This document shows, one piece after another, positions 4,307 to 20,014 of a DNA stretch of 20,014 bases. The position numbers and the translations under genes were made by a program. Source of the stretch: DATKZS01 sp035527835 [NCBI: bacterium] (GTDB taxonomy: Bacteria > RBG-13-61-14). Under the pieces are notes generated by a model that made no database searches, was not told the DNA's origin, and was given only the letters and a program-made list of their open reading frames with translations. Location of the stretch: positions 1 to 20,014 of the forward strand of contig DATKZS010000133.1 in assembly GCA_035527835.1 (NCBI GenBank). Reading direction: 5' to 3'. Every line of letters starts with the position of its first letter. The stretch's first letter is position 1.

Positions 4307-5185
4307 TCAGTTTCCTTGATTAAGCTCTTGCCAAAGGGCCCTGATCTCCGCGGCCACGGGCGTATCAAGCTCCACCACCGCCCGCTCTTGCATCTGGGCC
4401 GCGGTGACGTCACGGTTATAAGCAATCCGGCCAACCACGCGCGCGCCGCTCTCCCGCGCCCGGTCCTCGATCCGCTGCGCCATCGCGGGATTCAGGTCCC
4501 ACTTGTTAACGCAGACCGTCGCGGGGATGTTGAAGTGCCGCGTCAGGGAGAGGACCCGTTCCAGATCGTGTTCACCGGACACCGTCGGCTCCGTTACCGC
4601 CAACACCAGCGAGGCCCCGGTCAGGGAGGCGATCACGGGACAGCCGATACCGGGCGGACCGTCCACCAGGATGAGGTCGCGGCCCTGCTCCGCGGCCAGG
4701 CGCCGGGCCTCGCGCCGCACCATGGTGACCAGCTTGCCCGAGTTCTCGGCCGCGATGCCCAGCCGGGCGTGGACCATGGGGCCGCAGCGCGTATCCGACA
4801 CCATCCACTCCCCGCAAAGCCGCTCCGGGAAATCAATCGCTTGCTCCGGACAATACCGGACGCACACCCCGCACCCCTCGCACGAGACCGGATCAATCAC
4901 GAACCGCGCGCCGCCGCCGTGGCCGTTCTTTTTAACCGCGTCAAACCGGCAGAGCTCCGCGCACTCGCCGCATCCGGTGCAGTCCTCCCTCCGGATCACC
5001 GCCTCGCGGCCCGACCAGAACTCGTGCCGCTCCCGGACCCGGGGCGAAAGCACCAGGTGCAGGTCCGCCGCGTCCACGTCGCAGTCCGCGATCACCGCCC
5101 GGGCCGCGAGCACGGCGAACGACGCGGCGATGCTGGTCTTGCCGGTGCCGCCCTTGCCGCTGACGATCACAATCTCATTTATCAT
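4307..5185 (-). CDS. MinD-family P-loop ATPase with inserted 2x[4Fe-4S] ferredoxin domain (second of pair)
   Basis: 292 residues. It opens with the deviant Walker A motif of MinD/Mrp ATPases (SGKGGTGKTS, 9-18). A ferredoxin-like insert carries two four-cysteine sets: C69, C72, C75, C79 and C102, C105, C108, C112. The Walker B-like DGPPGIGCPVI follows near residue 174. In Desulfovibrio vulgaris a pair of such ATPases (DVU2103/DVU2104) belongs to the ORP complex, and related proteins act as Fe-S carriers. The start overlaps the previous ATPase by four bases (ATGA) with GAGGG upstream, so the two are coupled and probably made in equal amounts. It is clearly diverged from its neighbour, not a recent duplicate. 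Confidence 0.9.
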   Translation of the reverse strand: MINEIVIVSGKGGTGKTSIAASFAVLAARAVIADCDVDAADLHLVLSPRVRERHEFWSGREAVIRREDCTGCGECAELCRFDAVKKNGHGGGARFVIDPVSCEGCGVCVRYCPEQAIDFPERLCGEWMVSDTRCGPMVHARLGIAAENSGKLVTMVRREARRLAAEQGRDLILVDGPPGIGCPVIASLTGASLVLAVTEPTVSGEHDLERVLSLTRHFNIPATVCVNKWDLNPAMAQRIEDRARESGARVVGRIAYNRDVTAAQMQERAVVELDTPVAAEIRALWQELNQGN

Positions 5186-6060
5186 CTGCTTCCCTCGGCC
5201 TCCCGCCGGCCGGCCACGGTCCCGGGCGGCGCGAGCTCGAAAGCCCTTTCCATGAGCCGCGTGAAAAGCCCGCGCAACTGCGGAAGAGTATCAATGATGA
5301 GCTCTCCCCGCGAATAGGCCTCGGCGATCCTGCGGTCGTCCGGGATTTCCAGGAGGATGGGGATGGCTTCTTCCCGGCAAAATTCATGGACCCGGTCATC
5401 GCCGATCCCCACCCGGTTGACCACCACGCCGAAAGGCACTCTCAACTCCTTGACCATGTCCACCGCCAGCCGCAGGTCGTGCAAGCCGAAGGGGGTCGGC
5501 TCGGTGACCAACAGCACGAGGTCCGCGTCCCGGACCGCCGCGATCACCGGACACGACGTGCCCGGCGGCGCGTCCAGGATGGCGGGCACACCGTTTATCA
5601 GCCGCTCCTTCACCGCCCGGATCAGAGGCGGGGCCATGGCGCTGCCCACGTCCAGTTTCCCTTGCATAAGGGTGATGTTGCCCGAGGCCATGGTCTCGAT
5701 TTCGCCGATACGGTGGTCGGTCTCGCGGATGGCCCCTTGCGGACAGGCCTTGGCGCAGCCGCCGCAACCGTGGCACATCTCCGGGAACACCAGGGGCGCG
5801 GTCCCGAAGGAGACGATGGCGTGATACTGGCAGACGCTGCTGCATTGCGCGCAGCCGTCGCACAATGATTCGTCCACCTCCGGCACGGGAATGCAGACCG
5901 TTTCCAGGCTTTTGGCCACGCCATGCAAAAACAGGTGCGCGTTCGGCTCCTCCACGTCGCAGTCCAGCAATTGCACGGGTGTGCTAAGCGACATAGCCAG
6001 GTTAACGGCCACCGTGGTTTTACCGGTCCCGCCCTTGCCCGAAGCGATGGCGATAATCAT
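5182..6060 (-). CDS. MinD-family P-loop ATPase with inserted 2x[4Fe-4S] ferredoxin domain (first of pair)
   Basis: 292 residues, the same length as its neighbour. Deviant Walker A ASGKGGTGKTT sits at residues 6-16. The ferredoxin insert has C67, C70, C73, C77 and C96, C99, C102, C106, enough for two [4Fe-4S] clusters. DAPPGTSCPVIAA is the Walker B/switch region, whose cysteine is conserved in these CPxI-type Mrp/MinD proteins, and VTEPTPFGLHDL follows. The likely role is ATP-dependent Fe-S or metal-cofactor transfer, possibly with the NifX-like proteins encoded upstream, as in ORP-type loci. The ATG has GGGGGA close upstream. The spacer before it holds two short hairpins (6090-6136). Confidence 0.9.
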   Translation of the reverse strand: MIIAIASGKGGTGKTTVAVNLAMSLSTPVQLLDCDVEEPNAHLFLHGVAKSLETVCIPVPEVDESLCDGCAQCSSVCQYHAIVSFGTAPLVFPEMCHGCGGCAKACPQGAIRETDHRIGEIETMASGNITLMQGKLDVGSAMAPPLIRAVKERLINGVPAILDAPPGTSCPVIAAVRDADLVLLVTEPTPFGLHDLRLAVDMVKELRVPFGVVVNRVGIGDDRVHEFCREEAIPILLEIPDDRRIAEAYSRGELIIDTLPQLRGLFTRLMERAFELAPPGTVAGRREAEGSR

Positions 6061-6151: not shown

Positions 6152-6514
6152 TCATGCCCAGTGCCCCCCCACGTCCGCGGCCCGGGCCTCGCTGAGCTTT
6201 CCGGAGCGGTATTGCTCGAGGGCCTCGCCCACCGTGGAAGCCTGGGTGTTGAATATTTTTATGCCGGCGGCGGTGAGCACCCGGAAGGCCTTGGGCCCGC
6301 AGTGCCCGGTGACCACGATTTTTACGCCGGCCCTGGCCACGGTCTGCGCGGCCTGGATGCCGGCGCCTTGCGCCGCCTGCAGATTCTGAGAGTTGTCCAC
6401 GGCCTCGACCATCCCGGTGTCCGGGTCCACCATGACAAACACCGCGGCCCGGCCGAAGCGCGGATCGAGCGGGCTCGTTAAGTCCCGGCCCTGACTGGTA
6501 ATGCATATTTTCAT
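6152..6514 (-). CDS. NifX/NifB-type dinitrogenase iron-molybdenum cofactor-binding domain protein (third copy)
   Basis: 120 residues from the ATG at 6514, chosen because AAGGAGA lies just upstream and the domain begins at once (MKICITSQGRDLTSPLDPRFG). A longer frame to 6559 adds unrelated residues. The family signature follows: DPRFGRAAVFVMVD, then a TVARAGVKIVVTGHCGPKAF core and EALEQYRSGKL at the end. Proteins of this fold bind FeMo-cofactor precursors in nitrogenase systems. The Desulfovibrio ORP protein of this family binds a Mo-Cu-S cluster. No nitrogenase gene is seen here, so a non-nitrogenase metal-sulfur cluster is more likely. His and Cys in TGHCGP may be ligands. Confidence 0.9.
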   Translation of the reverse strand: MKICITSQGRDLTSPLDPRFGRAAVFVMVDPDTGMVEAVDNSQNLQAAQGAGIQAAQTVARAGVKIVVTGHCGPKAFRVLTAAGIKIFNTQASTVGEALEQYRSGKLSEARAADVGGHWA

Positions 6515-6583
6515 CGCATCTCCTTGTTCGGAATTCAGGCCCGGGAGCGGAGGGCACACGGCAGGCCCCCCCGCCCCCGGGGT

Positions 6584-7201: not shown

Positions 7202-7642
7202 TCATCCGCGATGGTCTTCCAAGCTTTTGCCTTTATCGCCATCCTCAGGGCTTTTGATTTGTTGGCAACACTCCCCGTGAATCTCGACAAACTCCAACTT
7301 TCCTTTAAGGAATTTTTCCACCGCCTCCGCGGGCGACTGCTTGGGATCAGCCACCACGAAAGGTTTTATCCCCCGGTTTTCCAATTCCTTGGCCACCGGG
7401 TAAGCCATGCCGCCGCTCAACACCGCCTCGCAATCCAAGAGCGGCGTCAGGATTTCAGCATGGATGTGAGTCTGCTCGCGGGCCTGGGCCTGCGCCCAGT
7501 CCTGAGAGCGATGCTCGGTCAGCATCCGGATCTCCTTGCCGGTGATCTCTCCGCCTTGAACCCGGAAAACCAGGTAGCACAGACTCTGTCCGAAATGCGG
7601 AGAAATATTGATCCCATCCACGGAGGGCACGGCGATTTTCAT
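7202..7642 (-). CDS. NifX/NifB-type cofactor-binding domain protein (second copy)
   Basis: 146 residues. The ATG at 7642 is chosen for its GAGGAG site and because the domain starts there (MKIAVPSVDGINISPHFGQS). A longer frame to 7945 overlaps the upstream gene in another frame and is not real. Features of the family are PHFGQSLCYLVFRV, the core CEAVLSGGMAYPVAKELENR and EAVEKFLKGKLE. The tail adds histidine- and cysteine-bearing sequence (VEIHGECCQQ) and a charged end. HIHAEI in the middle also offers metal ligands. It is distinct in sequence from the other two copies in the cluster, so the three probably have separate tasks such as carrying, receiving and regulating a metal-sulfur cofactor. 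Confidence 0.88.
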   Translation of the reverse strand: MKIAVPSVDGINISPHFGQSLCYLVFRVQGGEITGKEIRMLTEHRSQDWAQAQAREQTHIHAEILTPLLDCEAVLSGGMAYPVAKELENRGIKPFVVADPKQSPAEAVEKFLKGKLEFVEIHGECCQQIKSPEDGDKGKSLEDHRG

Positions 7643-7668: not shown

Positions 7669-8271
7669 TTATTCCCTGGTCATGGCTGTCCCGCAGCGGG
7701 GACATTGCCGCCCAACACACGGGACTCCGCGTTGGTGCTCTTCCCGATGCCCGCATTGCGGACAGACGCAAAACCCGCTCGGTCCAGCCGCCAACGGCCC
7801 GCCCGTGAACCCGCGGTTTTGTCCGCGACGTCCAGCGCCGCCTCCCCGGCCCATTCCTCCCCGGCCTTTTCCCTTGATCCCGGTCCCTTCCCGGCCCATT
7901 CCAGCGCCGGCCATGAAGCCCCGCCGGCGTCCCCGCCCGCAGCAACCGGGCATAAGAAAGGCCTCGTTTTCCAACTCGCCCTTGAGCCAGGCCTGGATGA
8001 CCTCGCCAAGATCGCCCTTCACAAACGGGATTACCCGGATGCCATGCGCCAAAACCATTTCATGGAGGGGCCGGGAGATGGCGCCGCAGATCAACTCCTC
8101 CACCTTCAAAGCGCTGAGCCTGGCGATCCGGTCGCCGGGGTCGGGCCCCGGCAAGGGTTCTTCTTTTCTCGTGACGACTTCAGCGCGCTCGATCTCCAGG
8201 ACCAGAAGCTTCCGGGAAACATCGAACACCGGCGCAATGCGCCCGTTCCATATGGAAACCGCGGTCCTCAC
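7669..8271 (-). CDS. NifX-type domain fused to Gly/Arg-rich linker and C-terminal zinc ribbon (first copy)
   Basis: 200 residues from a GTG at 8271 with GAAGAAGG upstream. Residues 1-105 are a NifX/NifB-type cofactor-binding domain (RTAVSIWNGRIAPVFDVSRK, and then EELICGAISRPLHEMVLAHGI). Residues about 108-165 are a Gly/Arg/Met linker like the DUF5320-type proteins next door, with CC at 110-111. The end carries a zinc-ribbon-like cysteine set: C168, C170, C173, C185, C190, C193 (CPQCGHREE, then CPRCGTAM). The linker resembles a fused copy of the neighbouring Gly-rich proteins, which supports a physical partnership between them. A role as scaffold or regulator of cofactor delivery is inference. 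Confidence 0.82.
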   Translation of the reverse strand: MRTAVSIWNGRIAPVFDVSRKLLVLEIERAEVVTRKEEPLPGPDPGDRIARLSALKVEELICGAISRPLHEMVLAHGIRVIPFVKGDLGEVIQAWLKGELENEAFLMPGCCGRGRRRGFMAGAGMGREGTGIKGKGRGGMGRGGGAGRRGQNRGFTGGPLAAGPSGFCVCPQCGHREEHQRGVPCVGRQCPRCGTAMTRE

Positions 8272-8293
8272 GCGCCTTCTTCCCCTTTTCCCG

Positions 8294-8638
8294 CTACATG
8301 TATTCGTGCGTACCCATCACCACGTTGGCCCCGGTCTTGTTCGTGACGATCTTCGCCAAGTCCTCGATAGTGGAATAAGGGCAGCCGGGCTTGGCATTGG
8401 CCAGGCAGCTCGAGAACCGGATCTCCTCGGGCTTGATCTCCGAGAGCTTGATGGCCATCCCGATATTGGCGGCCAGGTTTCTGCCCGGGCAGTTGCACTT
8501 GACAAACCCCACTACCTGGACCGGCTCCTCGAACTTGCCCTCGCCCAGGGCCGCGGCTTTCAAACAGCGCCACTCGCCCGGGCAGCCATAGCCGCTGTCC
8601 ATGTAGGCGCCGCATCCCACGATCAATACTTTTTTCAT
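8294..8638 (-). CDS. CGGC-domain-type cysteine-rich protein
   Basis: 114 residues from the ATG at 8638. AAGGGGGGA lies four bases upstream, which decides the start over a longer frame to 8692. Seven cysteines are spread in the CGGC-domain manner: C9 in VGCGAY, C19 and C25 in YGCPGEWRC, C48 and C50 in KCNCPGRN, C78 in SSCLA, and C86 in PGCPYS. CGGC-domain proteins are small proteins of anaerobes predicted to bind metal or an Fe-S cluster. No reaction is known. Position directly after the selenoprotein candidate suggests redox or metal partnership. Confidence 0.72.
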   Translation of the reverse strand: MKKVLIVGCGAYMDSGYGCPGEWRCLKAAALGEGKFEEPVQVVGFVKCNCPGRNLAANIGMAIKLSEIKPEEIRFSSCLANAKPGCPYSTIEDLAKIVTNKTGANVVMGTHEYM

Positions 8639-8719
8639 CAGTCCCCCCTTGCTTTCGCTTGAGATCTTTCCGTCCATTGCGGCGCCGATCATCGGCTCAT
8701 CAAGATGCCGCGGTGAATT

Positions 8720-10075
8720 TCATCTTCCCAGCTTCTGGAGTGCCTGCTCCGCGGCGATCGTGATCGGCTCCGCGCTGGGCTCGGAGGAGCAGTCGGGATT
8801 GCCCGCGCACATGAGCGTGGTCAAATCGGGGATGGTCATCCCGCCCAGGATCAGGGCGTTAACCGCGTCAATCTCCTTTGCCGGGGCCACGTCATCGCTT
8901 ATGATCTGGCCGCCGATCAGCTTTTTGCTCTCCTTGTCGAACACCAGCTTCAGGGTCCACGGCTTCTTGCCGGGGATCATGCCGTGCTTGCTCCTGGAGT
9001 CAACGGTTGCGCACACGGGGTTAAAATTCTCCTGCTGAGCCTGCTCCTCGGTAAGGCCGGTGGCCGCAATGTACTTGTCGAACAGCCTGACCACACTGTT
9101 TCCCAGCACTCCCGGGAACGGTATTGCATGGCCGGCAAGCCTCTTGGCGACAAGGCGGCCCTGGATCACCGCGGGACCGCGAAGCTGGATGGGGACAGGC
9201 TTTTTCGTCACGAAATGGATGTTCTCCACACAGTCTCCCGCCGCCAGGACATCCGGATTCGAAGTCTCCAGAAATTCATTGACCTTGACGCCGAACCTGC
9301 CTATCTCCAGGCCCATGTCCCTGGCCAGCTCCAGGTTGGGCCTGGCTCCCACGTTCATGAAAACCATGTCAGCCTCCAGGCTTTCCCCGGAGCCCAACTC
9401 CACTCCCGCAACTCCCCCGTCCCGGCCCAGGATTTTGGTCACCTTCTCGCCCATCCTCATGTACAGGCCCTTCTCCGCCAGGTATCCCTGGACCTTGGCG
9501 CCCAACTCCGCGTCAATCATGAGGGGAAGAGGGTGGCCCAGAAGCTCGATGATGCTGATCTCGTACTTGCCGGGCTGGTTTTCCGTGAGCAGCGCGGCCA
9601 GCTCCATGCTGATGAACCCCGCTCCGATGAACACCAGTCTCCGGGGGGTTTTATCATTCAAAAAACTTCTGATCTTTTCCGCATCCACCAGAGACCGCAG
9701 GGTAAATACTCCCCGCAGGCCGCTTCCCTCGATGGGAGGAATGAACGGCTTGGCCCCGACTCCCAGGACCAGCTTGTGGTAAGCGAGTTCGCGTCCATCC
9801 GACAACTTGACCTTCTTGGAAGCGGCATCCACGCTTTCCACCCGCGCGATGATCGAGTTGATCCCATTATCCGCGAACATCTTGTCCGGATTTACAATGG
9901 ACTCCCCAGTGACCAGACCGGCCACCACGTGCGGCAGCGCTCACCTGACGATGAAGGTCTCCTCCTCCCGGATCACGGTCACCTCCACCTCCGGCATGAG
10001 CTTTTTGGAAAGCATGGCCGCGGGACCGCCCACTCCGCCGCAGCCAATGATCACCAATTTCCCGCCCTGGTTCAT
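8720..10075 (-). CDS. FAD/NAD-dependent disulfide oxidoreductase (CoA-disulfide reductase/NADH oxidase type), probable selenoprotein with in-frame TGA as Sec45
   Basis: 451 residues when the in-frame TGA at 9941-9943 is read as selenocysteine. The N-terminal FAD site is KLVIIGCGGVGGPAA (6-20), which ends just before FIVR-U45-ALPHVV. In CoA-disulfide reductases and NADH oxidases the redox-active cysteine sits exactly here (C-A-L-P-Y), so Sec replaces that cysteine. The NAD site is FIGAGFISMELA (about 149-160), the second FAD motif is DVLAAGDCVEN (about 275-285), and a dimerisation domain follows with a Cys pair near the end (C423, C428). A SECIS-like hairpin follows the TGA. The ATG at 10075 has GGGGAG upstream and overlaps the stop of a 34-codon ORF. 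Stop at TGA would leave a useless 44-residue peptide and a headless enzyme. Alternatives are a sequencing error or a nonsense mutation. Confidence 0.82.
9909..9943 (-). promoter_or_regulatory. SECIS-like element: UGA (9941-9943) plus downstream hairpin (9909-9925)
   Basis: Read on the minus strand, the TGA is followed after 15 bases by GTGGCC-GGTCT-GGTCAC, a 6-bp stem (one G-U pair) with a five-base loop. The loop GGUCU is the same as I recall for the Escherichia coli fdhF SECIS apical loop, where SelB contacts the G and U. The first loop base is 25 counted from the U of UGA, against about 22 in fdhF and within the usual bacterial range. Weaker G-U pairs could extend the lower stem. The coincidence of the TGA at the active-site position and a canonical loop at the right distance makes chance unlikely. 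Confidence 0.78.
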
Positions 10076-10176
10076 GGCCTCTCTCCCCGGCCGATTCGCC
10101 GGCCATGTTCAACGGCCAATGATTTGCCCGTTCCGGCCCGGGATTTTCCCGCCATCAATAATGCGACGTTCTTCAT
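10072..10176 (-). CDS. Putative 34-residue leader or small protein, coupled to the selenoprotein gene
   Basis: A short frame opening MKNVALLMAGKSRAGTGKSL and ending RRIGRGERP. It has an excellent ribosome-binding site (GGGAGG seven bases before the ATG). Its stop overlaps the ATG of the oxidoreductase gene (ATGA). It is the first cistron after the candidate sigma-54 promoter. GKSRAGTGKS loosely resembles a P-loop, but the peptide is too short to be an ATPase. It could be a translational-coupling leader, a small protein, or the scar of a longer gene. I do not recognise it. Confidence 0.45.
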   Translation of the reverse strand: MKNVALLMAGKSRAGTGKSLAVEHGRRIGRGERP

Positions 10177-10200
10177 GACTTGGCCTCCCGGCCCCATAAA

Positions 10201-10219
10201 GAAGCAACCATAATACCAG
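10201..10219 (-). promoter_or_regulatory. Candidate sigma-54 (-24/-12) promoter for the metal-cofactor/selenoprotein cluster
   Basis: The minus strand reads CTGGTATTATGGTTGCTTC. It has the invariant GG and GC elements separated by exactly ten bases, with TTGCT at -12, against the consensus TGGCAC-N5-TTGCA. The -24 half is weaker (TGGTAT). The predicted start point, near 10192, gives a short leader before the Shine-Dalgarno of the 34-codon ORF. A sigma-54 activator gene ends 137 bases upstream on the same strand, which supports the call. Confidence 0.6.
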
Positions 10220-10356
10220 AATTGAAAAAAATGACAGGAAAGACAATAAGACTCAATAAATCAGAACGTTAAGACGGAGGGGAACACGACTTTTCCGGTG
10301 ACGATAGTAGCTGAGATGAGACTGTATTGGAATTTCAGGGTCGTAAAATAAAGACT

Positions 10357-11781
10357 CTACTTGCGCGGTTTTTTGCGGGAGCGGCCGTCCTCTTCGGGCA
10401 GGTCGAGTCCCAGTTCCTTGATCTTGCGGAACAGGGTGGACTTGTGGATGCCCAGTTCCCGGGCCGCGGCCAGGCGGTTTCCGGAGTTGCGCGCGAGGGC
10501 GGAGCGGATGAGCTGGGCGTCCATCAACCCGCGGGCATTACGAATACCGGAAGACGAATCCATCTTGGCTCCGGAAGCGGTCAATTCCTCCGGCAGATGG
10601 CCCATGCCGATGAGTCCCTCCCGGCACAAGATAAAGGACCGCTCGATGGCGTTTTCCAATTCGCGCACGTTTCCGGGCCAGTCATGGGCCATGAGCAGGG
10701 ACAGGGCCTCGGGCGCGATCCCCTGAATGGACTTTCGCTGCAGGCGGTTGAACCGGGCGATGAACTGATCCACCAGAAGCGGGATGTCCTCCTTGCGCCG
10801 CCTAAGCGGCGGCAGTTCCACCCGGACCACGTTCACCCGGTAATAGAGGTCCTCGCGGAAAGCGCCGTGGCGCACCTCTCCGGCCAGGTCCTTGTTGGTG
10901 GCGACCATGACCCGGGCGTCGGAGGTTTCGGAGCGGGTCGCGCCCAGCGGCTCGAAGGTCTTGTCCTGGAGCACCCGCAAGAGCCGCACCTGCAAAGCCG
11001 GGCTGACCTCGCCGATCTCGTCGAGGAAAAGGGTCCCGCCCCGGGCCAGCGCGAAGCGGCCGGGCTTGTCCTGGCTCGCGCCGGTGAACGCGCCCGCCTT
11101 ATAGCCGAACAGCTCGGACTCGAGGAGCGTGTCCGGCAAGGCCCCGCAGTTGACCGCGATGAACGGGCCCTCCTGGCGCGGGCTCAATTCGTGAATGGTG
11201 CGCGCCACCAGTTCCTTGCCCGTCCCGGTTTCACCCAGGATCAACACCGTGCTGGGGCTTGAGGCGATGGCGGGCAAGACCTCGAACAACCTCTGCATCA
11301 GGGGGCTGCGGCTGACCAGGTCGCCGGCCCGATACCGGCCCTCCAACTCCTGGCGCAACGCCTCCACCTCGGAGAGGTCCCGGAAGGTTTCGGCCCCCCC
11401 GACAATCCGGCCCTGGCCGTCCTTGAGCACCGCCGTGGATACGCTGATCGGAATCCGGGTCCCCTCCGCGTCAATAATGTAACCCGACCGGCCGATGATC
11501 GGCTTCCCGGTCTTCATGGTCCGCCTAAGCGCGCACTCGGCCTCGCACATGCTCGAACGGAACACCTCCGAGCATTGCTTCCCGATGGCCTCCTTCCGCA
11601 TGATCCCCGTGATCTCCTCCGCCGCCCGGTTGAACGACGTGATGCGCCATTCGTGGTCCACGGTGAACACCCCATCCGAGATGCTCTCCAAAATGGCCTC
11701 GGTCGGCGTCAGGCGGGCAGGCTTCTCATTGGTTCGCTTACTCATCAACTTATACGCTCGATCAACAGGCGATAGATCCAC
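10357..11781 (-). CDS. Sigma-54-dependent transcriptional activator: PAS - AAA+ - Fis-type HTH
   Basis: 474 residues. A PAS domain (about 24-138) has the pattern ILESISDGVFTVDHEWRITS. It carries a cysteine cluster C70, C79, C83, which could sense redox state or metal. The AAA+ domain has Walker A GETGTGKE (183-190), the sigma-54-contacting GAFTGA loop (230-235), Walker B GGTLFLDE (248-255) and the R-finger region FREDLYYRVN. The C-terminal Fis-like HTH has NRLAAARELGIHKSTLFRKI. It most likely activates the promoter at 10201-10219, in the manner of the sigma-54 regulator of the Desulfovibrio ORP operons. The start is uncertain: GTG at 11781 (AGG five bases upstream), or ATG at 11745 without a clear site. 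Confidence 0.93.
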   Translation of the reverse strand: MDLSPVDRAYKLMSKRTNEKPARLTPTEAILESISDGVFTVDHEWRITSFNRAAEEITGIMRKEAIGKQCSEVFRSSMCEAECALRRTMKTGKPIIGRSGYIIDAEGTRIPISVSTAVLKDGQGRIVGGAETFRDLSEVEALRQELEGRYRAGDLVSRSPLMQRLFEVLPAIASSPSTVLILGETGTGKELVARTIHELSPRQEGPFIAVNCGALPDTLLESELFGYKAGAFTGASQDKPGRFALARGGTLFLDEIGEVSPALQVRLLRVLQDKTFEPLGATRSETSDARVMVATNKDLAGEVRHGAFREDLYYRVNVVRVELPPLRRRKEDIPLLVDQFIARFNRLQRKSIQGIAPEALSLLMAHDWPGNVRELENAIERSFILCREGLIGMGHLPEELTASGAKMDSSSGIRNARGLMDAQLIRSALARNSGNRLAAARELGIHKSTLFRKIKELGLDLPEEDGRSRKKPRK

Positions 11782-12798: not shown

Positions 12799-13350
12799 TT
12801 ATCGCCAGATGCCTATTGTGATCACCTTAAGGCCGGAGAAGGAGCGGGGCAAGCCAGCATAAAGCCAGGCCGGGACTTGACTTCCCGGCGCGATAACTTG
12901 GACCAGAACTCGCCGGTAGAGGCAGGGGCCAACGGGATTGAAGCCCTCCAGCCGGTCAATGGCCGGGAGGCGGGATTCGGGGTCGTTAAACGCCAACAGT
13001 TCGCCGCACACGCGGCCCCAGTCGCCCACGGGTGCGTCCTGGGGCTGGAGGGCGTGGTGTTGGGCCAAGTGCTTGGCGAAGCGCTCCTGTGTGGCGACGT
13101 CGGCGAGGGGGTCGTGAGTGCCCTGGGCGAGGATGTGCTCCTCGGGGACCTCGATAATTGGGATGCCGGAAGGGAACTGGTACAGGCGGCCAATGATGGT
13201 GATTGGCTCGACCGAGAGGACGCCGCGACAGTAACGGTCATGGTTTATATGGCCAACCTTCAAGGTGCCATAAGTTGCGAGATACAAGAGGCCATTCGTG
13301 TTCTCCTTCGGGCTGTCATGATCATTCATTGGGGGTAGTCTCCGCTTCAT
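12799..13350 (-). CDS. Gamma-glutamylcyclotransferase-like (GGCT/AIG2 fold) protein of the amidoligase operon
   Basis: 183 residues. Family marks are YLATYGTLKVG (YGTL at 27-30, the substrate-binding loop), IGRLYQF, VCGELLAF, the LPAIDRLEGF motif (D131, E134) and CLYRRVLVQV followed by PAWLYAG. These enzymes release 5-oxoproline from gamma-glutamyl amines. In operons with amidoligases they are predicted to remove or edit gamma-glutamyl linkages. The start at 13350 overlaps the stop of the amidotransferase gene (ATGA) and has AGGAG seven bases upstream. The N terminus has about 20 extra polar residues. It is the last gene of the phage-like module. Which acidic residue is catalytic I cannot tell. 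Confidence 0.82.
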   Translation of the reverse strand: MKRRLPPMNDHDSPKENTNGLLYLATYGTLKVGHINHDRYCRGVLSVEPITIIGRLYQFPSGIPIIEVPEEHILAQGTHDPLADVATQERFAKHLAQHHALQPQDAPVGDWGRVCGELLAFNDPESRLPAIDRLEGFNPVGPCLYRRVLVQVIAPGSQVPAWLYAGLPRSFSGLKVITIGIWR

Positions 13351-14144
13351 TGCCCTGCTCCTGCGGGTTCTGGTACCCTTCTGGCCTGCGCCTGGAACGT
13401 GAAGACTTCCCTTGAGTACCCTGACAGATCATCGTGCCGGAACACAACCAGACTCATGGGAGGGAGGGGAATCTCGACCCAGCCGCGCTCACCCGCGAGC
13501 GCGGCGTCCAGGAAGGCCGGGTCGGAGGCGTAAATAACCGCCCGGTGACGCTTGCTGTAGCGCAGTTCGAGCGGCTTGTTGCCCTTGAGGACCAGGACGG
13601 TCCCAGGCAGCTTCCGTGAGGCCATGATCGTGGTGAGTTGCCCCCGGCAATGGGCGACCCAGCGCTTGAATTTATCGAGATCGAGCTGCCCATTTCTGAA
13701 TGCCCGGTCCGCCAGGCGGAAGATGATCTCGCTGTCCACCTCGGCATGGCGTCGCACCTTGAATCGCGTGAAAAGATAGTCCGCGTTGAGGATGGTCCCG
13801 TTGTGGGCACCAATCACGTTGCCAGCGCGGATGGGGTGATTATTGAGATTGTTGCGCTCGTCCCCGCGAGTACGCCAACGATTGTGGCCGAGAAGAAGCG
13901 TGGTGCTGTTGCTCACGCCGGAGAGCAAGTCGTGATAGGCCTTGTCCATGATGAACTGTTCGGCGGTGACCGGAAGCTTGAAGAGCCGATGCTCGCCGCC
14001 CTGGTCGAGCCAGGCCGCGCCGGTAGCGTGCGGGCCGCGCTCCTCGCTCAAGACGAGGAGACGGGTGAAGAGCCAGGTGAGATGGTCAAGCTCTTCGGGC
14101 TTCCGCCGCTTTTTGCCGAAGATTACTCCGGTAAGGCCGCACAT
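13347..14144 (-). CDS. Class II (Ntn) glutamine amidotransferase, glutaminase domain only
   Basis: 265 residues. Cys2 after Met ([10 protein letters not shown]) becomes the N-terminal nucleophile. Other GlmS-type glutaminase residues are R36-G37, GHNRWRTRG (86-94), NNHPI, GAHNGTI with N115-G116 for the oxyanion hole, and D137 in HAEVDSEII. No synthase or isomerase domain follows, so the ammonia must be passed to a partner, most simply the amidoligase encoded two genes upstream. The end of the protein is Pro/Gly/Gln-rich. The stop of the upstream gene and this ATG overlap in TGATG, and GGAGG lies nine bases before. Similar stand-alone GATase II genes are known in phages and in amidoligase clusters. 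Confidence 0.9.
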   Translation of the reverse strand: MCGLTGVIFGKKRRKPEELDHLTWLFTRLLVLSEERGPHATGAAWLDQGGEHRLFKLPVTAEQFIMDKAYHDLLSGVSNSTTLLLGHNRWRTRGDERNNLNNHPIRAGNVIGAHNGTILNADYLFTRFKVRRHAEVDSEIIFRLADRAFRNGQLDLDKFKRWVAHCRGQLTTIMASRKLPGTVLVLKGNKPLELRYSKRHRAVIYASDPAFLDAALAGERGWVEIPLPPMSLVVFRHDDLSGYSREVFTFQAQARRVPEPAGAGQ

Positions 14145-14647
14145 CAGGACTGCCCTCCATTCGGCTCGGGGGCGAAGCCCCGGAACACACCCTCGGCGTA
14201 CTCCTTGGGATGCTCCTCGATCCAGCGCGTGGTTTCGGGGAAGCCGAGCTTCCCGGCGAGCCGGGCGACCAGGGGCCGGTCGAGCATGTTGGTGAGGCCC
14301 GAAAGGCGCACCGCGTCAATGCCTCGCCAAGCGCGGTCCGGGAGCGGTACCGGCCCTGCGGGTTTCTCATCCAGCAGTTCCGCCAGCCTGTGCGCGACCA
14401 GGGCGTCGAGGAGGGACGAGGCCTTTTCCTCGGGCGTGTCGCCCACGACCGCGAGCTCGATCCCGGCGAGCATCTTGGCATTGCGCAGGACCATGTCAAT
14501 GTAGTCCTCGATCCCGCACTGGTCAGAGAAGAGGGACGAACCTTTCATGGCTCGCAAGACTTCGAGAGGATTTTTCCCGGTGAAAACCTCGCCGTCACCG
14601 TCGAGCGGTTTGCCGTCGAGAGATGTGTTCCTGATCATGACCCTCAT
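14144..14647 (-). CDS. Unknown 167-residue protein inside the amidoligase operon
   Basis: I do not recognise a family. The protein opens [20 protein letters not shown], looks soluble and mostly helical, and has acidic and basic helices ([40 protein letters not shown]) and one cysteine (C44). It overlaps both neighbours: ATGA with the amidoligase stop and TGATG with the amidotransferase start. This shows that it belongs to the module. Possible roles are an acceptor or carrier for the ligated group, or a subunit that couples glutaminase and ligase. Both roles are inference. Its run of downstream helices with conserved-looking Trp/Arg ([19 protein letters not shown]) could be checked for conservation across phages. 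Confidence 0.8.
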
Positions 14648-15600
14648 TGCGCACCTCCTTCCTCCGCACTGGAAGCGGGCGAATCGGTTTCAGTCTCGGC
14701 GCTCGTCTGCGGCTCCTCGACCGGTCGGCCGCGCTTGAAGGCCGAGTCCCCGGGCATGGCCTCAAGGAGGTGCTTGCGCGCTGTCTTGAACTCATCGCCG
14801 ATCAGCCCGAGGTGCAGGAGGAACACCCGGAAGTCGTAGCGGGCGCTCTGCGGGTTGAAGGTTCGCTTGCGGCTGGAGGCGGCCCGGCCATTCAAGGACT
14901 TGGCGGCCACGGCCAGGACCAGCTGGACGTAGGCTTTGATCTTGCCCGCGTGGAGCGTGCCCTCGAACCAGCGGAACTCAACCGTGCCTCGGTACCAGAC
15001 GTTGTGCAGGTTCACACCGTGGTAGCGGGTGCTGTCGTAGTGCTGGGGCTGCTGGTTGTGGTAGCCATACCAGATGCGGTTGAGTTGGTCCTTGGTCTTG
15101 GGCCGGCTCCGCTCTATCTGGGCGATAAGGTCATCGCTCACCGGCTTGGTGTAGCTCTTCCGCCGGTTCTCTTTGACGCCCAGGGCGGTAAGGATGAGCG
15201 CCTCCTGCTTGTAGACGATCTTGGCGAGGTTGCCGAGTGTGCGGCCGTCAAAGGCCGAGGCGTCCACGTGGACGTGGATGCCGCAACGGTCGTCCACCTT
15301 GGCCCCGCAGGTCCGCACCGCGCGGACGACCTCCTGGAGGAGCGGGAGGTCCTCGTAAGTGAGGACCGGACTCACCACCTCGGCCCGCAGGCTGAAGGGC
15401 ACGTTGATGAGCGAGCCGTCCGCGACCACCTTCCAGACCCGCCCCCGCGTGTCCTTGACCTCCCAGGGGTCGTAATGAGAGGGCGTGCCCACGTGCCTCA
15501 CGTCGCCGCCCACCGCCATCTGGATCGCTCTGGCCACCACCTCGCGTGTTCTTTTGACCGTCTCGATCTCGATCCCGAAGTTCAGTTCCCTTAGTTCCAT
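14644..15600 (-). CDS. Phage-type amidoligase (glutamine-synthetase-like COOH-NH2 ligase)
   Basis: 318 residues from the ATG at 15600, which has AAGGAGG four bases upstream. A longer frame to 15672 is unlikely. Amidoligase_2-type motifs in order: FGIEIETV (E11, E13), WKVVADGSL (K57, D61), AEVVSPVL (E74), [10 protein letters not shown] (H109, H111), a RYHGVNLHN stretch (R192, H194, N197) and [12 protein letters not shown] (E208, R210). These match the metal- and ATP-binding acidic, histidine and arginine positions of the glutamine-synthetase fold. Such enzymes are predicted to form amide bonds between a carboxylate and an amine or ammonia. Aravind's group described them with glutamine amidotransferases and cyclotransferases in phages and bacteria. 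The substrate is unknown. The last 40 residues are polar and probably disordered. Confidence 0.88.
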
Positions 15601-15853
15601 CTTGCCTCCTTGCTTTCTCGTAAGCCGCTGTTCTTGCATACTTATTAGTATCACATGAACGCTTCTTTTCACCGTGAAAGCAAGTCAAATCTTCAAGTTT
15701 CCTCCGGCAGGATCTACAGGCAAAGGGAGCGGATGTACATGCCTAAAATTGCACTAAATTAACGCCTGGTTGCGGAGCGACTAGAAATGGCCCATGAACC
15801 CCGAGGCTCAAAAAAGAACACAGGATGGCCGGCTTCCGGGCGGAAGCGGGGGC
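15601..15853. other. 253-base intergenic stretch upstream of the amidoligase operon
   Basis: No convincing gene on either strand. It holds a perfect dyad TTTCAC-C-GTGAAA at 15667-15679 (arms of six, one-base centre) and, on the minus strand, an extended -10-like TGTGATACT, whose hexamer lies at 15647-15652. No good -35 is present at the right spacing. The dyad is centred near where a -35 would lie, as expected for a phage repressor or activator site. The rest (15700-15853) shows nothing I can interpret. Confidence 0.45.
15667..15679 (-). promoter_or_regulatory. Candidate operator dyad and extended -10 promoter for the amidoligase operon
   Basis: The dyad TTTCACCGTGAAA is a perfect 6-1-6 palindrome. 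On the minus strand it is followed by GATACT with a TG extended element 14 bases on, and the operon's first ATG is about 47 bases further. Dyads of this size commonly bind small dimeric HTH regulators. No such regulator is visible in the window. Confidence 0.35.
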
Positions 15854-16123
15854 TCAGGTGGCCCTCTCCTGGTGGGTCAGCCCGGCGTCGAGGAGTTCCT
15901 GGTTGATCCTGCCCGCCTCGTGTTCCTCGCGGCGGATAGCGGCCATGAGGTTGGCAAACTCGGTAGCGGCTTCAGGCGGGATTCCCAACCGCTTTTCGAT
16001 TCGCCTCACGCGGGCCTCCAGGTTGGCGAGCAGGTCGAGGGCATGGTCGCGCAGCACGCCGTCGCGCTTCTCCTGGGGCGAAGGGATGAACTCGGTCAAG
16101 CCTCCGGCTCTTCTCACGATCAT
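15854..16123 (-). CDS. Small phage protein with coiled-coil region, unknown function
   Basis: 89 residues. It has a very good site (AAAGGAGG, five bases before the ATG at 16123) and follows the tail-type gene by 11 bases. The middle is helical and heptad-like (LRDHALDLLANLEARVRRIE, then KRLGIPP), and the end is charged (AAIRREEHEAGRINQELLDA). The placement directly after a tail protein suggests a structural accessory or chaperone, but I do not recognise the family. It happens to be in the same frame as the out-of-frame extension of the upstream broken gene, so an automatic caller may wrongly merge them. Confidence 0.75.
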   Translation of the reverse strand: MIVRRAGGLTEFIPSPQEKRDGVLRDHALDLLANLEARVRRIEKRLGIPPEAATEFANLMAAIRREEHEAGRINQELLDAGLTHQERAT

Positions 16124-16134
16124 CGCGGCCTCCT

Positions 16135-17142
16135 TTAGCTCAGCGTCGCCCCCAGAGTGTGAATCCTCGGGTAGACCAGGTTGTTGCCGGTCAACTCGGC
16201 CTTGTAGCGGACCTTGTTCCCGTTGGGGTCGGTGAAGGTGCGGGTAAGCGTGTACTCGGTCCACTCCTGGTCGATCTCGCGAGTCGTGAGGATGGACATG
16301 GCCTCCCAGGTCACGCCGCCATTGTTGGAAGCGAACCAATTGATGGTGGTCCCGCTGGGGATGCTCATCTGCGCGTAGACCTTGGTGGAGGCCACTCCCT
16401 GGGTGAGTTCGTTTTCGCGGTTCAAGTACGCGCCGGTCGGGTTGTTGAGGAAGCCGAGCAGGTTCACGTCCTTGAAGTTGAGCGCGGGCGAGTCGTTGGC
16501 CGCGCCGGTCGAGAACAGGGCCCGCACGAGCACTTGCCCGGCCAGGTTCGGCAACCGCTCCTCTTCGGCGGGCACGATGGCGTCCCAGGTCACGCCGCCG
16601 TCGGTAGAGTATTCCCAGACGATGGCCGAACCCTCGGGGGTCGAAGAATACTCGTCGAGGTTCAGGTCGCTGAACTGCACGCCGGTGATCGGCTGGAAGC
16701 GGACCTCGCCGCTCGGCTGGAAGTCGTAGCCGTAAATTTTCATGGTGAGGTCGGAGCCGTTGAGCGGGGTCCAGGTCTCGGCGTTGGAGCTTTCGAGAAG
16801 CACGCCTGCGGTGTAGGTCTGGCTGGTGATAACGCCGTTCTGCCCCAGCTGGCCGAGCGTGGCGATCCGGACCTTGTAGTTGTTGCTGTTGGTGAGGAGC
16901 ACGACCGCGTAACTCGTGTTGGCTTGGGCATAGAACGGATCGGCGAAGGCGATCTTGGTCTCGGCGTTCAGGACGACCTCGCCCGGGGCCACCACCTTCT
17001 CGGCCAGCACGACCTCGTTGGGAAGCCCGGTGGTCACGCCGCGAATCTGGATGGTGACCGGGATCGTGGCGTCCTTTTGCGTGAAGTAAACGCCCACGGC
17101 GGAGACGATCCGGTTCTCTGTGAAGCTGAAGGTCTGGGCCAA
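16135..17142 (-). CDS. Tail-fibre/adhesin-like phage structural protein, C-terminal fragment
   Basis: About 335 residues, beta-rich. It reads AQTFSFTENRIVSAVGVYFTQ, then VTIQIRGVTTGLPNEVVLAE, a jelly-roll-like domain seen in phage tail and receptor-binding proteins. Two Asp-box-like turns follow (STDGGVTW and SNNGGVTW), a pattern found in beta-propeller sialidases and phage adhesins. The only start at the 5' edge is a TTG at 17142 with AAGGA about 11 bases upstream, which is poor. The frame continues the frame-shifted upstream ORF (needs a +1 shift). It is therefore either the second half of a broken or frameshifted gene, or a gene whose 5' part was lost. It is followed by the 89-residue gene. 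Confidence 0.7.
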   Translation of the reverse strand: MAQTFSFTENRIVSAVGVYFTQKDATIPVTIQIRGVTTGLPNEVVLAEKVVAPGEVVLNAETKIAFADPFYAQANTSYAVVLLTNSNNYKVRIATLGQLGQNGVITSQTYTAGVLLESSNAETWTPLNGSDLTMKIYGYDFQPSGEVRFQPITGVQFSDLNLDEYSSTPEGSAIVWEYSTDGGVTWDAIVPAEEERLPNLAGQVLVRALFSTGAANDSPALNFKDVNLLGFLNNPTGAYLNRENELTQGVASTKVYAQMSIPSGTTINWFASNNGGVTWEAMSILTTREIDQEWTEYTLTRTFTDPNGNKVRYKAELTGNNLVYPRIHTLGATLS

Positions 17143-17143
17143 T

Positions 17144-17677
17144 GTTGGCGTTGTCCTTGATCACGTAGTAGCTGCCGAGCTTGAAGATCGAGGCGTCATT
17201 CACCTGGATCGTCACCACCGAACCGGCGGCAACCGCGGCCTGCGAAATCGCAACCGCGCCAGACCAGAACCGTTTGGGCAGTCCGCAATAATGCGCGTAG
17301 TAAGTGGCCACGAGCTTGGTGACGATGAAGGCGTGGTCCTTGTCAGCGTAAATCCAGTAGAGGAAAGCGGCGGCGTCTGTGGTCTTGATGTAGGTGTTGC
17401 TGGTGTTGAATGCCTCCTTCACGCCTGCGTGGGTTGTGTCGTTCCAATACAGGTAGGCTTTCACGGCGATCCGGTCGGCGGTGGAGTCGTTCTGAAAGCG
17501 GAGATATATGTCCTCCGAGCCGCTCTCACCGTTGGAAAAGAGCACGTAGCTGGGTTCGGTATCGCCAGACCGGTCATCGCGCAAGGTCCAGCCAACGGTT
17601 CCGACCAGGTAGTCTTTGAGTTTGACCAGGAAATCCGCTGAATTGTTGGCGAGACCAGTGGTACTTTGATAGGCCAT
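17144..17677 (-). CDS. Phage tail-type structural protein, N-terminal fragment, broken at its 3' end
   Basis: 178 residues are believable before the frame turns into a shadow of the next gene. It starts MAYQSTTGLANNSADFLVKL, after GAGGTG six to seven bases upstream, and continues WTLRDDRSGDTEPSYVLFSN and SGSEDIYLRFQNDSTADRIA, as in phage baseplate/tail-associated proteins. It ends in VVTIQVNDASIFKLGSYYVI-KDNAN, where the open frame should go on with more beta structure. Instead, the tail-fibre-like sequence continues one base out of frame. The reading frame technically stays open to 15854, but that part is low-plausibility (His/Arg/Pro-rich). Confidence 0.7.
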
Positions 17678-17680
17678 GAT

Positions 17681-17938
17681 TCACCTCACTCGATGGGGCT
17701 TTCGGTTCCGGTAATGGGGAGCGAGGATCCGCAGGGTCCACTTGAGCATCGGGTTGCCCGCGGTCTTGGACTTGGTCAACTCCACGCGCTCGACGTTGAC
17801 CTGGTACTTGCCATCGGGGACCTCCTCGAAGTCCCGCTCCTCAATGGGCGCATGGGTGTAGTCCTCATCGAACTGGGAAAGATCAATGTCGCCCGTGCTC
17901 CCGGTTGAGGGGTTGGTCTCGAATTCATTGTTCGGCAT
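17681..17938 (-). CDS. DUF669-like phage recombination/ssDNA-binding-type protein, C-terminally cut
   Basis: 85 residues, about half the usual length. The start is acidic (MPNNEFETNPSTGSTGDIDL), and VPDGKYQVNVERVELTKSKT, AGNPMLKWTLRIL, APHYRNRKPHR follow, which fits the DUF669 pattern of a conserved Gly-Asn-Pro-Met/Leu turn and a beta-barrel. DUF669 proteins sit beside RecA-like ATPases and nucleases in phages and are thought to bind single-stranded DNA. Here the gene stops after HYRNRKPHRVR, four bases short of the tail-type gene. A clean ribosome-binding site (GGAGG, eight bases before ATG 17938) shows that the start is sound. The cut end suggests a deletion junction at about 17690. Confidence 0.58.
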   Translation of the reverse strand: MPNNEFETNPSTGSTGDIDLSQFDEDYTHAPIEERDFEEVPDGKYQVNVERVELTKSKTAGNPMLKWTLRILAPHYRNRKPHRVR

Positions 17939-17959
17939 GGTTCGGTCCTCCTTAATTCG

Positions 17960-18745
17960 TTATTTGGTTTGGTTCGCAGGCGCGGTCGGTTTGGTATGCG
18001 CGGTGGAAGGCTTGGTCTCGGTCTGCGATGTGTTCATCTGGGGCGCTACGCTCTTGCTGTTGAACGCCTCCATGAACTTGTTGAAGTCCAGGTCTAGCAC
18101 TTCGGGCAATCGCCCGGTGCGGTCGCCGGCCTCGTAGTTGGGGCTGGGCTTCGTGCGCATGACGCGCTTGTAGGTGGGCTTGCCGTCCTCGCCCGGGACC
18201 ACCTCGATGTCGCAGAAGAGGATCATGTCCACCATGCCCAGCACCTGCTTGCGGGCCTTGTCGGGCAGGGTCGGGACGATCCGGGTGAGCTTGCCGGTGC
18301 GGGTCTCGATCTCCTTCTCCTGTGAGTGCGAGATGAGGAACAGGCCATAGGGCAGGAAGGCCAGCTTGTTCAGCACGCGCAGGAATTCGTTGTTGATGAG
18401 CGCGTAGCCCTTGCCGTAGCCCAGGTCGGACTCGTGCTCGATCTTGAACTTCTTGCAGATGTAGTCGCTGCACATGCGGTAGGCGTTGTCCAGGGTGTCG
18501 AGCACGATGGTCTTGAAATTGTGCTTGCCCTCCGCGATCTCGGCGCAGGCCGCGAGCAGGTCCTCCCAACTGTTCACCGGGGTCTGGAACACCTCAAGGG
18601 AGTTGAGGCCTGGCTCGGTGGCCAGGAAGAGTGCGTTGTCGGCCTTGGCGCAGAGGGACGATTTCCCGATCTTGCTCGGCCCATACACCAGGACCGTCAG
18701 GTTGGACAGGTCCTGCTTGGGCGAGGTCTTTTGAGTGGGTAGCAT
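17960..18745 (-). CDS. Phage RecA-like ATPase (AAA_24/Sak4-type)
   Basis: 261 residues. Walker A is GPSKIGKSS (22-30) and Walker B is in KTIVLDTLDN. A HNFKTIVLDT-type motif, ISHSQEKEIETRTG (motif near the sensor) and the polar tail fit Sak4-like single-strand annealing/RecA-type phage ATPases. These assist recombination or replication with an ssDNA-binding partner, and the DUF669-like gene follows. The last 30 residues are Thr/Lys/Pro-rich and disordered. The start at 18745 has GGAG eight bases upstream. A second ATG nearer the site is in another frame and would give a short shadow. Confidence 0.85.
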   Translation of the reverse strand: MLPTQKTSPKQDLSNLTVLVYGPSKIGKSSLCAKADNALFLATEPGLNSLEVFQTPVNSWEDLLAACAEIAEGKHNFKTIVLDTLDNAYRMCSDYICKKFKIEHESDLGYGKGYALINNEFLRVLNKLAFLPYGLFLISHSQEKEIETRTGKLTRIVPTLPDKARKQVLGMVDMILFCDIEVVPGEDGKPTYKRVMRTKPSPNYEAGDRTGRLPEVLDLDFNKFMEAFNSKSVAPQMNTSQTETKPSTAHTKPTAPANQTK

Positions 18746-18763
18746 TTCATTTTCTCCTTTCGC

Positions 18764-19801
18764 TTAGAATGCCGGGGCGCTTTCGGCCACTGCGTGGTCC
18801 CGCGCCTCGGCTTGTTTCGCCGCCAGTTCCTCGTGAGGCGGCGCTTGTTGATAAAAGTTCTCGATGACGTTGGGGCTGCCGTTGGAGCGGCAGAGGGGGT
18901 AGTAGGAGCACTGGCGGCGGTAGTGGAAGCAGAACGCGGTGTTCTGGTAGAAAACCCCGCGCCGCCTGGCGTCGAGGAAGGCCTGGGAGAGTTCCCACAA
19001 CTCGGCCCGGAGCGTGTCGAACTGGTCACGGGAGACGTAGAGCATCTCGCGGTGGAACATGCCCGGCTCGGAATACTTCTCTGCGAGCCGTGCCTGGAAG
19101 TCCGCGTCACTCTCCGGGAGCTTGCGCTTGGCGCTCGTCTTGCCGGTCTTGGACTTGGCTATCAGTTCCGCTCGCCGGGCCTCGAACTCGGCCTCGGTCT
19201 CGCCTTTGCCTTGCTGGAGCCGGGCTTTGACCAGGATGTTGTAGATGACGCCCGCGATCTTGATGCCCAGCGCCTGCTCCACGTACCAGGTGTAGAGCAC
19301 GATCTGGAAGTCGGTCCACAGCCGCTCCAGGTAGTCGGCGTCCACTTGCGAGGCGGTCTTGTGTTCGAGAAGGAAGTGCTCATTGCCTCTCAGCACGATG
19401 CCGTCCACCTTGCCCGCGAGGGTGAAACTCCGTGAGGAAGCTCCCGTGGCCGGGTTGATGATCTTGTCCTCGAACGGTTGCTCCAGGCCTACCACTTCGA
19501 ACTCTTCTTCCTGGTACCGGACCGCGTAGCTCTTCATCATCGCGGTCGCCAGGTGCCAGTCACCAAGCTCGCCCTCATCCTGCGCCCGCTTCGGATACGC
19601 GCGGTCAATGTAGTCGAGGACCTTGGCCAGGTCCCGCTCCCGGTGCCATAGTTCCAGGCACTCGTGGATCATCGAGCCGAAGCTCAAGTTGTGGTCCTTC
19701 TCCAGCGGCACAAGTCCCTTGAGATAGCGCCACTCGCAGGCCTTCCGGCAGTTGCGGAACATGGACCACATCGAATACGTGCTGATCATCTGCTCGCTCA
19801 T
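18764..19801 (-). CDS. PD-(D/E)XK nuclease, Cas4/RecB-like, with Fe-S cysteine set
   Basis: 345 residues from the ATG at 19801, which overlaps the upstream stop (ATGA) and has GGAGG seven bases upstream. A frame reaching 19978 is a shadow of the upstream gene. Nuclease motifs are FGSMIHECLE (His46), GKVDG (D133) and FLLEHKTA (E146, K148). The N-terminal C18 (or C22) plus C-terminal C291, C298 and C304 give the four-cysteine [4Fe-4S] arrangement of Cas4 and AddB. Such phage nucleases resect DNA for recombination and work with RecA-like and ssDNA-binding partners, as encoded here. A charged region (about 205-250) is inserted between the nuclease core and the cysteine end. Confidence 0.9.
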   Translation of the reverse strand: MSEQMISTYSMWSMFRNCRKACEWRYLKGLVPLEKDHNLSFGSMIHECLELWHRERDLAKVLDYIDRAYPKRAQDEGELGDWHLATAMMKSYAVRYQEEEFEVVGLEQPFEDKIINPATGASSRSFTLAGKVDGIVLRGNEHFLLEHKTASQVDADYLERLWTDFQIVLYTWYVEQALGIKIAGVIYNILVKARLQQGKGETEAEFEARRAELIAKSKTGKTSAKRKLPESDADFQARLAEKYSEPGMFHREMLYVSRDQFDTLRAELWELSQAFLDARRRGVFYQNTAFCFHYRRQCSYYPLCRSNGSPNVIENFYQQAPPHEELAAKQAEARDHAVAESAPAF

Positions 19802-20014
19802 AACGCGGCCTCCACCGGCCTGCCAGCTGGCATGGTCGGCTGCGGATCGCGGCTGATCTCCGGCGGCGAAAAAGTCCTCTCCACCTTGAACGCACCTTCC
19901 CCGAACTGGCGGGTGATAAAACCCGTGAAGATCTTGGCGATGTTGCGGCCGACCTCGGTCCCGGCGTCGATCACGCACGAGCGTTTTTTCAGGTCCAGGC
20001 GGAACTTCGCGTCC
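19798..20014 (-). CDS. Partial unknown phage protein (C-terminal end)
   Basis: 71 codons to the stop are visible. The gene enters from beyond base 20014. The sequence reads DAKFRLDLKKRSCVIDAGTE, then VGRNIAKIFTGFITRQFGEG and AFKVERTFSPPEI, with a Pro-rich end. The stop overlaps the nuclease start (ATGA), so it is in the same operon. I do not recognise the family. The fragment looks like a small soluble DNA-metabolism accessory of the sort commonly found upstream of phage Cas4-like nucleases. Confidence 0.65.
   Translation of the reverse strand, partial: DAKFRLDLKKRSCVIDAGTEVGRNIAKIFTGFITRQFGEGAFKVERTFSPPEISRDPQPTMPAGRPVEAAL

Follow-up and report, generated by a model that had tools for sequence, protein, structure and literature searches.

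A flavoenzyme gene with a single in-frame TGA codon

The minus strand of the window (the whole stretch of DNA that was analysed, 20,014 nucleotides) holds a reading frame of 451 codons that runs from an ATG at 10075 to a stop codon at 8720-8722, with a TGA at codon 45 as its sole interruption. The original prediction had placed this TGA at 9941-9943 in an otherwise intact gene, within the peptide context FIVR-U-ALPHVV, and translation bears out both the frame and the context. It had also held that standard gene calling would start at about 9928; the table-11 open reading frame indeed spans 8720-9928, with a GTG start and 402 amino acids, and lacks residues 1-49. An annotation made from this shorter frame would start the enzyme 49 residues late and leave out the N-terminus that binds FAD as well as the catalytic residue. 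On the sequence comparisons presented below, the TGA that seems to break the gene is very probably translated as selenocysteine, which would place selenium at the catalytic site of a flavin enzyme. The gene has the following features.

8720-10075, minus strand: predicted selenoprotein gene, encoding a 451-residue FAD/NAD(P)H pyridine nucleotide-disulfide oxidoreductase with Sec45 (translation, Pfam, 17-row ortholog alignment)
9941-9943, minus strand: in-frame TGA, the predicted selenocysteine codon 45, at the catalytic cysteine position (translation and alignments with relatives)
9926-9928, minus strand: GTG, codon 50, start of the table-11 open reading frame (ORF list)
9909-9925, minus strand: candidate bSECIS hairpin, a 6-bp stem pairing 9925-9920 with 9914-9909, loop GGUCU at 9919-9915, 15 nt past the TGA (comparative conservation, folding)
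10078-10088, minus strand: putative Shine-Dalgarno-like GGGGAGAGAGG preceding the ATG at 10075 (read by eye only)

The encoded protein resembles CoA-disulfide reductases and NADH oxidases

In Pfam, the protein matches Pyr_redox_2 over residues 6-288 (3.2e-51; 174.9 bits against a gathering score of 26.1) and Pyr_redox_dim over residues 333-430 (2.8e-11; 44 bits against 25.3), and its best sequence relatives in the PDB are named CoA-disulfide reductase or NADH oxidase. The catalytic cysteine of these relatives, in the motif C-G-[LI]-P, is aligned with residue 45 in the three PDB alignments shown, in agreement with the earlier claim that selenocysteine occupies the redox-active position. The enzyme had been typed in the same prediction as a CoA-disulfide reductase/NADH oxidase. 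Its resemblance to this group stands, in fold and in alignments, but it is no orthodox member: it scores 259.5 bits with the CoA-disulfide reductase equivalog model TIGR03385, below the curated cut-off of 578.8. The model is matched by all 17 ortholog rows at E-values up to 1e-30.

A predicted structural model of the protein has a mean pLDDT of 70.5, with values under 50 at residues 42-61 and 422-434; because it is weak at the active site, it was used for the fold only. The top Foldseek matches to this model are CoA-disulfide and persulfide reductases, with a best E-value of 3e-40. The CoA-disulfide reductases 1yqz (S. aureus), 3icr (B. anthracis CoADR-RHD) and 5l1n (P. horikoshii) have the same fold at 24-31% identity, but Sec45 stands here for their catalytic cysteine, and the tyrosine of their APPY motif aligns with C429 in the two alignments that reach it. 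This tyrosine is catalytic in CoA-disulfide reductase, and the structure title of the S. aureus Y419F variant is found among the Foldseek matches. The window gene has CAGNPDC rather than a C-terminal APPY motif, and no rhodanese domain was matched by Pfam in its protein. Also among the best fold matches are the NADH-dependent persulfide reductases 3nta (Shewanella Npsr), 6pfz (A. fulgidus) and 8a56 (E. faecalis CoAPR); the persulfide reductase targets are 535-565 residues in length, compared with 451 here, and Npsr has an extra rhodanese domain. The type III sulfide quinone reductase selenoprotein (NF049943) is likewise NAD(P)/FAD-dependent, but it belongs to the COG1252 (Ndh) family and has the motif HxxU; it is predicted in Desulfosediminicola in the available text of PMC12013277, and is tabulated under this accession and motif in PMC13188914.

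The gene neighbourhood points to sulfur or metal-cluster chemistry

The flavoenzyme gene is flanked by genes for small cysteine-rich and NifX-like proteins, ATPases and a regulator.

10357-11781, minus strand: PAS / sigma-54 activator / Fis-type regulator, upstream (PF00158, 7e-67)
8294-8692, minus strand: CGGC-domain small Cys-rich protein, the next gene downstream, with 8638 as a possible alternative start (PF08821, 2.3e-21)
7669-8271, minus strand: NifX-like protein, Nitro_FeMo-Co (PF02579, 2.7e-8)
7202-7642, minus strand: second NifX-like protein (PF02579, 1.4e-10)
6152-6559, minus strand: third NifX-like protein (phmmer, 5e-36 to the NifX-like seed from locus L088; translation)
5182-6060, minus strand: MinD/Mrp-type ATPase with a 4Fe-4S ferredoxin insert (CbiA, 1.1e-18; Fer4, 1.7e-13)
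4307-5185, minus strand: second MinD/Mrp-type ATPase with a 4Fe-4S insert (Fer4, 6.6e-12; CbiA, 1.4e-11)

A DUF5320 gene comes after the NifX-like genes in this downstream series, and a NifU_N gene after the two ATPases. Neighbour seeds were searched (E up to 1e-5) in 61 loci, which include the window and the cysteine-containing copies, many with only 1.5 kb of flank; MinD-type genes were found in 13 (some of them weak matches), sigma-54 regulators in 10, NifU-like genes in 8, NifX-like genes in 7, CGGC genes in 6 (weak in L056) and DsrE-like genes in 6. Most loci thus share none of these neighbours. Only in the window, L002 and L005 does a sigma-54 regulator lie in the same orientation and no more than 500 bp upstream, and this domain is a common one. 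The neighbourhood points to sulfur or metal-cluster chemistry, without fixing the substrate.

The DsrE-like gene beside the flavoprotein gene itself has a TGA, in the motif U-IPC, at four loci (L007, L008, L057 and L088), which would each carry two adjacent selenoprotein genes; the DsrE-like neighbour has cysteine in L084 and L087. A DsrE-like selenoprotein (UxxC) already figures among the catalogue entries available in PMC13188914.

A proposed selenolate mechanism, by analogy with CoA-disulfide reductase

In the mechanism that we propose, the hairpin that starts 15 nt past the UGA would guide SelB with Sec-tRNA in decoding codon 45 as selenocysteine. NAD(P)H would reduce FAD, and FAD would reduce the active-site residue; the selenolate of Sec45 would then attack its sulfur substrate (a disulfide, a persulfide or a polysulfide), and the flavin would resolve the Sec-S adduct that results. 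CoA-disulfide reductase works with a single catalytic cysteine, and by analogy we infer a single-residue chemistry for Sec45. The best reading of the enzyme, by the same analogy, would be an NAD(P)H-dependent disulfide or persulfide reductase that uses a selenolate. A sulfur compound is suggested as the substrate by the closest structures, together with the CGGC, DsrE-like, NifX/NifU-like and Fe-S ATPase genes found near a minority of the loci.

NADH oxidases and peroxidases belong to the same fold group, and the reaction of selenols with peroxides is fast; the enzyme could on this basis be mainly an oxygen- or peroxide-reducing NADH oxidase or peroxidase, with selenocysteine serving peroxide chemistry. 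We regard this as unlikely, given that CoA-disulfide and persulfide reductases head the list of structures and that some loci adjoin the four kinds of gene just named, although all of this would still be compatible with peroxide use.

The C-terminal cysteine pair of CAGNPDC was considered as a defining part of the mechanism, and its distribution weakens this candidate. Among 51 of the 52 TGA rows described below (the truncated L095 was left out), C423 and C429 are both present in only 25, C425 alone in 17, C423 with C425 in 4 and C423 alone in 2, while 3 have no C-terminal cysteine. On these alignments, the partner subunit could supply another redox residue in most members, and not all would require one.

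TGA and cysteine at codon 45 among relatives

A scan of genome contigs gave 45 loci, the 16 closest of which, at 65-72% identity, were taken as close orthologs; all 16 have TGA at codon 45, so that its occurrence there is more than chance. Among 389 genomes from the class to which Desulfocicer vacuolatum belongs (strain DSM 3385 of this species has the ortholog L003), we found 50 matches in 49 genomes (E up to 1e-90), with exactly one TGA in 46 matches and none in 4, and a TGA-bearing copy is present in 46 of the 389 genomes sampled. In an overlapping sample of 395 genomes of the phylum (E up to 1e-75), 42 genomes had 44 matches between them, and six of these matches have one TGA.

Rows of over 300 bits and at least 380 residues were taken as the family; with the window gene included and 12 genome-repeating loci left out, these number 59. 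At the catalytic position, 52 rows (including the window gene) have TGA, six have cysteine (L070, L078, L080, L100, L101 and L102) and one is frame-broken, which is the exchange around residue 45 that the original prediction had anticipated among homologs. L097 and L103, which are shorter, share the TGA and its motif and stand outside the 52. The broken row, L079, has lost its frame near the TGA, between this codon and a conserved histidine, either by decay or through a draft error. Two of the cysteine rows, L070 and L078, are nested within the selenocysteine clade, and genome G180 carries both a cysteine copy (L078) and a TGA copy (L066).

A branch distinct from the catalogued UGxP selenoproteins

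Selenocysteine at the catalytic position of this flavoenzyme superfamily is already catalogued, as a computational prediction, and the branch described here is distinct. A predicted selenoprotein, "FAD-dependent oxidoreductase (CoA-disulfide reductase)", WP_011365774.1, is assigned to COG0446 in the available text of one review (PMC9312934), and the corresponding part of another gives the same selenoprotein the motif UGxP and the model TIGR03385 (PMC13188914); both cite Kryukov and Gladyshev 2004 for this selenoprotein. No separate description of the U[A/S]LP branch was found in the accessible portions of the literature, in which it may be counted silently within COG0446/TIGR03385.

WP_011365774.1 itself is known from its catalogue entry; rows for comparison were found with the DNA pattern U-G-x-P-Y in the 395 genomes, a noisy search that gave 23 matches in 23 genomes against 11 for a reversed control pattern. 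From 13 of the 23 loci we obtained superfamily rows that could be aligned, with the motif S[YF]xx-U-G-[IM]-P-Y; among the others, L125 is superfamily-like by eye and at least 8 of the remaining 9 are not. These UGxP rows have the superfamily and the selenocysteine position in common with the window gene, both groups are found in one phylum sample, and a hairpin lies 3' of the UGA in the UGxP rows found. With the reviews listing, in their available parts, one broad family (COG0446 in PMC9312934; TIGR03385 in PMC13188914) that may silently include these genes, the window gene could be merely another member of the UGxP subfamily, sharing a single cysteine-to-selenocysteine event. We consider this improbable. 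All 52 TGA rows have U[A/S]LP, as opposed to UG[IM]P; the C-terminus [AS]PP[FY] of the 13 aligned UGxP rows is absent from the U[A/S]LP branch; and the hairpin sequences differ. The two sets of rows also lie apart, with several cysteine-only lineages between them, both in a quick tree of 92 rows and in a careful tree of 60 rows, from which long and odd rows, L130 among them, were left out and in which close copies were thinned. In the 92-row tree, L130, a long UGxP row, does not group with the main body of UGxP rows. A single clade of 39 U[A/S]LP, 10 UGxP and 3 nested non-selenocysteine rows was rejected by an AU test on the quick tree, in which L130 was not constrained (p 5.6e-6).

As judged from these comparisons, the gain of selenocysteine in the U[A/S]LP branch was probably separate from that in the catalogued UGxP enzymes. 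The trees are unrooted and formally allow a single ancient gain followed by several losses, a history that would involve a larger number of changes. Inside the U[A/S]LP branch, L094, which has the same hairpin, splits off before L070 and L078 (support 97/93 in the 60-row tree), and this order suggests one gain followed by one loss of selenocysteine to cysteine. The two selenocysteine clades in one superfamily, the nested cysteine copies and the pair of copies in G180 together offer a natural system on the benefit of selenium to a thiol flavoenzyme.

A more elaborate picture is speculative and, in our view, rather doubtful as a whole. The U[A/S]LP enzymes would form an uncatalogued selenoenzyme subfamily in a superfamily that gained selenocysteine at least twice; Sec45 and a partner-subunit cysteine (C429, C423 or C425, near or at the position of the CoA-disulfide reductase tyrosine) would form an intersubunit selenenylsulfide relay, carrying electrons from NAD(P)H to small sulfur-carrier partners of the CGGC or DsrE-like type, the latter sometimes selenoproteins themselves.

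A constrained hairpin follows the TGA codon

The original prediction had described a 6-bp stem with loop GGUCU, 15 nt after the TGA. This structure is present at 9925-9909, where GUGGCC is paired with GGUCAC around a loop that is, presumably, identical to that of E. coli fdhF. The length from UGA to loop is 21 nt, and a 39-nt segment folds at -13.5 kcal/mol; the loop GGUCU and both these values agree with the bSECIS model as given in the available part of PMC13188914, with G in the first two loop positions, a loop of 3-9 nt, a stem of 4-16 bp, a UGA-to-loop length of 16-37 nt and an MFE at or under -7.5. Folding energy was rejected as evidence for a SECIS element, with a z-score of +0.5 and 134 of 200 shuffles folding at least as well; the case for the hairpin therefore rests on comparative evidence. 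A scan of the 20,014-nt window with Rfam at gathering scores gave no match, and a tRNA gene search of the window found none.

All six stem pairs are present in 47 of the 52 TGA rows and in none of the six cysteine rows, and the four loop-proximal pairs in 51 and none, respectively; the exact loop GGUCU is found in 47 of the 52. Possible outer pairs in the window are not conserved (the seventh occurs in 20/52). The underlying codons are nearly invariant in the TGA rows, with GTG at codon 51, GCC at codon 52 and GGT at codon 53 each in 51/52, and CTG at codon 54 in all 48 rows that have leucine there. We compared codon choice with each gene's own usage in 118 conserved degenerate columns of the 52 TGA rows. 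The resulting z-scores were -24.9, -19.1, -26.5 and -15.0 for codons 51 to 54, against a median of -1.7, and treat related rows as independent, which overstates their independence. Codons 53, 51 and 52 have the three lowest z-scores of the 118 columns; four serine columns rank between these and codon 54 (z -18.2 to -15.4), in which the split between AGY and TCN makes switching hard. As far as these sequences go, the hairpin codons are frozen beyond the needs of the protein.

The nested cysteine copies L070 and L078 are a better control for the hairpin than the z-scores, and they bear on a further alternative, that conservation of the peptide VAGL has produced the hairpin incidentally and that selenocysteine insertion, if any, depends on something else. 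The invariance of V51, A52 and G53 in the 17-row alignment and a fold no stronger than that of shuffled sequences would fit such a by-product. The third positions of GTG GCC GGT CTG are frozen, however, unlike those of most other conserved columns, and L070 and L078 retain Gly-Leu yet use a GGC codon and have no stem, which makes this alternative very improbable.

Selenocysteine machinery in the genomes of relatives

A tRNA-Sec was found above the cut-off in 11 of the 16 ortholog genomes, with one match each at 75-78 bits. The model matches all 14 control genomes at E-values up to 0.001, and 5 of them above the cut-off, so that weak matches are meaningless. SelB is above its cut-off in 13 of the 16 ortholog genomes compared with 2 of the 14 controls, and in 32 of 43 further genomes (29 of the 37 with a TGA copy). 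Across the 53 genomes of TGA-bearing relatives, SelB is above the cut-off in 42 and under it in 11, with genome completeness unstated. Among genomes in which only a cysteine copy was seen, SelB is also above the cut-off in G026, G506 and G533 and below it in G185 and G558; its presence therefore does not discriminate between the two kinds of copy.

The open frame, the exchange of TGA and cysteine, the constrained hairpin, the fold family and, for most of the relatives' genomes, the selenocysteine machinery are established; from these we infer that selenocysteine is actually inserted at codon 45. A real stop at this codon, in a pseudogene or by sequencing error from TGC or TGT, is hardly credible. 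The table-11 frame is indeed a truncated ORF of 402 amino acids, and L079 shows that frame-broken copies of the gene occur in drafts; but TGA stands at one and the same codon in 52 of the 59 family rows, which come from different genomes, conservation extends over the remainder of the frame, and synonymous change in the hairpin codons is strongly constrained. The selenoprotein assignment of the original prediction is supported by the TGA/cysteine exchange and by the hairpin comparison. We hold with high confidence that the best joint explanation is a genuine selenoprotein gene, in which SelB and the hairpin would direct Sec45 into a flavoprotein of the CoA-disulfide reductase/NADH oxidase/persulfide reductase group that uses selenolate chemistry.

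Promoter candidates and other features of the window

Upstream of the gene, a sigma-54 type -24/-12 site with two mismatches at 10218-10203 is not claimed as a promoter, as the window holds 5 such sites against 8.6 expected. A sigma-70-like site lies upstream of the gene at 10237-10210 on the minus strand, as a consensus match only; four such sites occur in 8000-10400, compared with a mean of 0.7 in shuffled sequences. Elsewhere in the window, the minus strand of 12799-20014 carries a run of GGACT, GATase_6, DUF5049, Amidoligase_2, AAA_24 and PDDEXK_1 genes, possibly a block of phage or mobile-element origin. At 457-2205, also on the minus strand, a 582-amino-acid ORF matches both Cation_efflux and Band_7/SPFH and appears to be a fusion.
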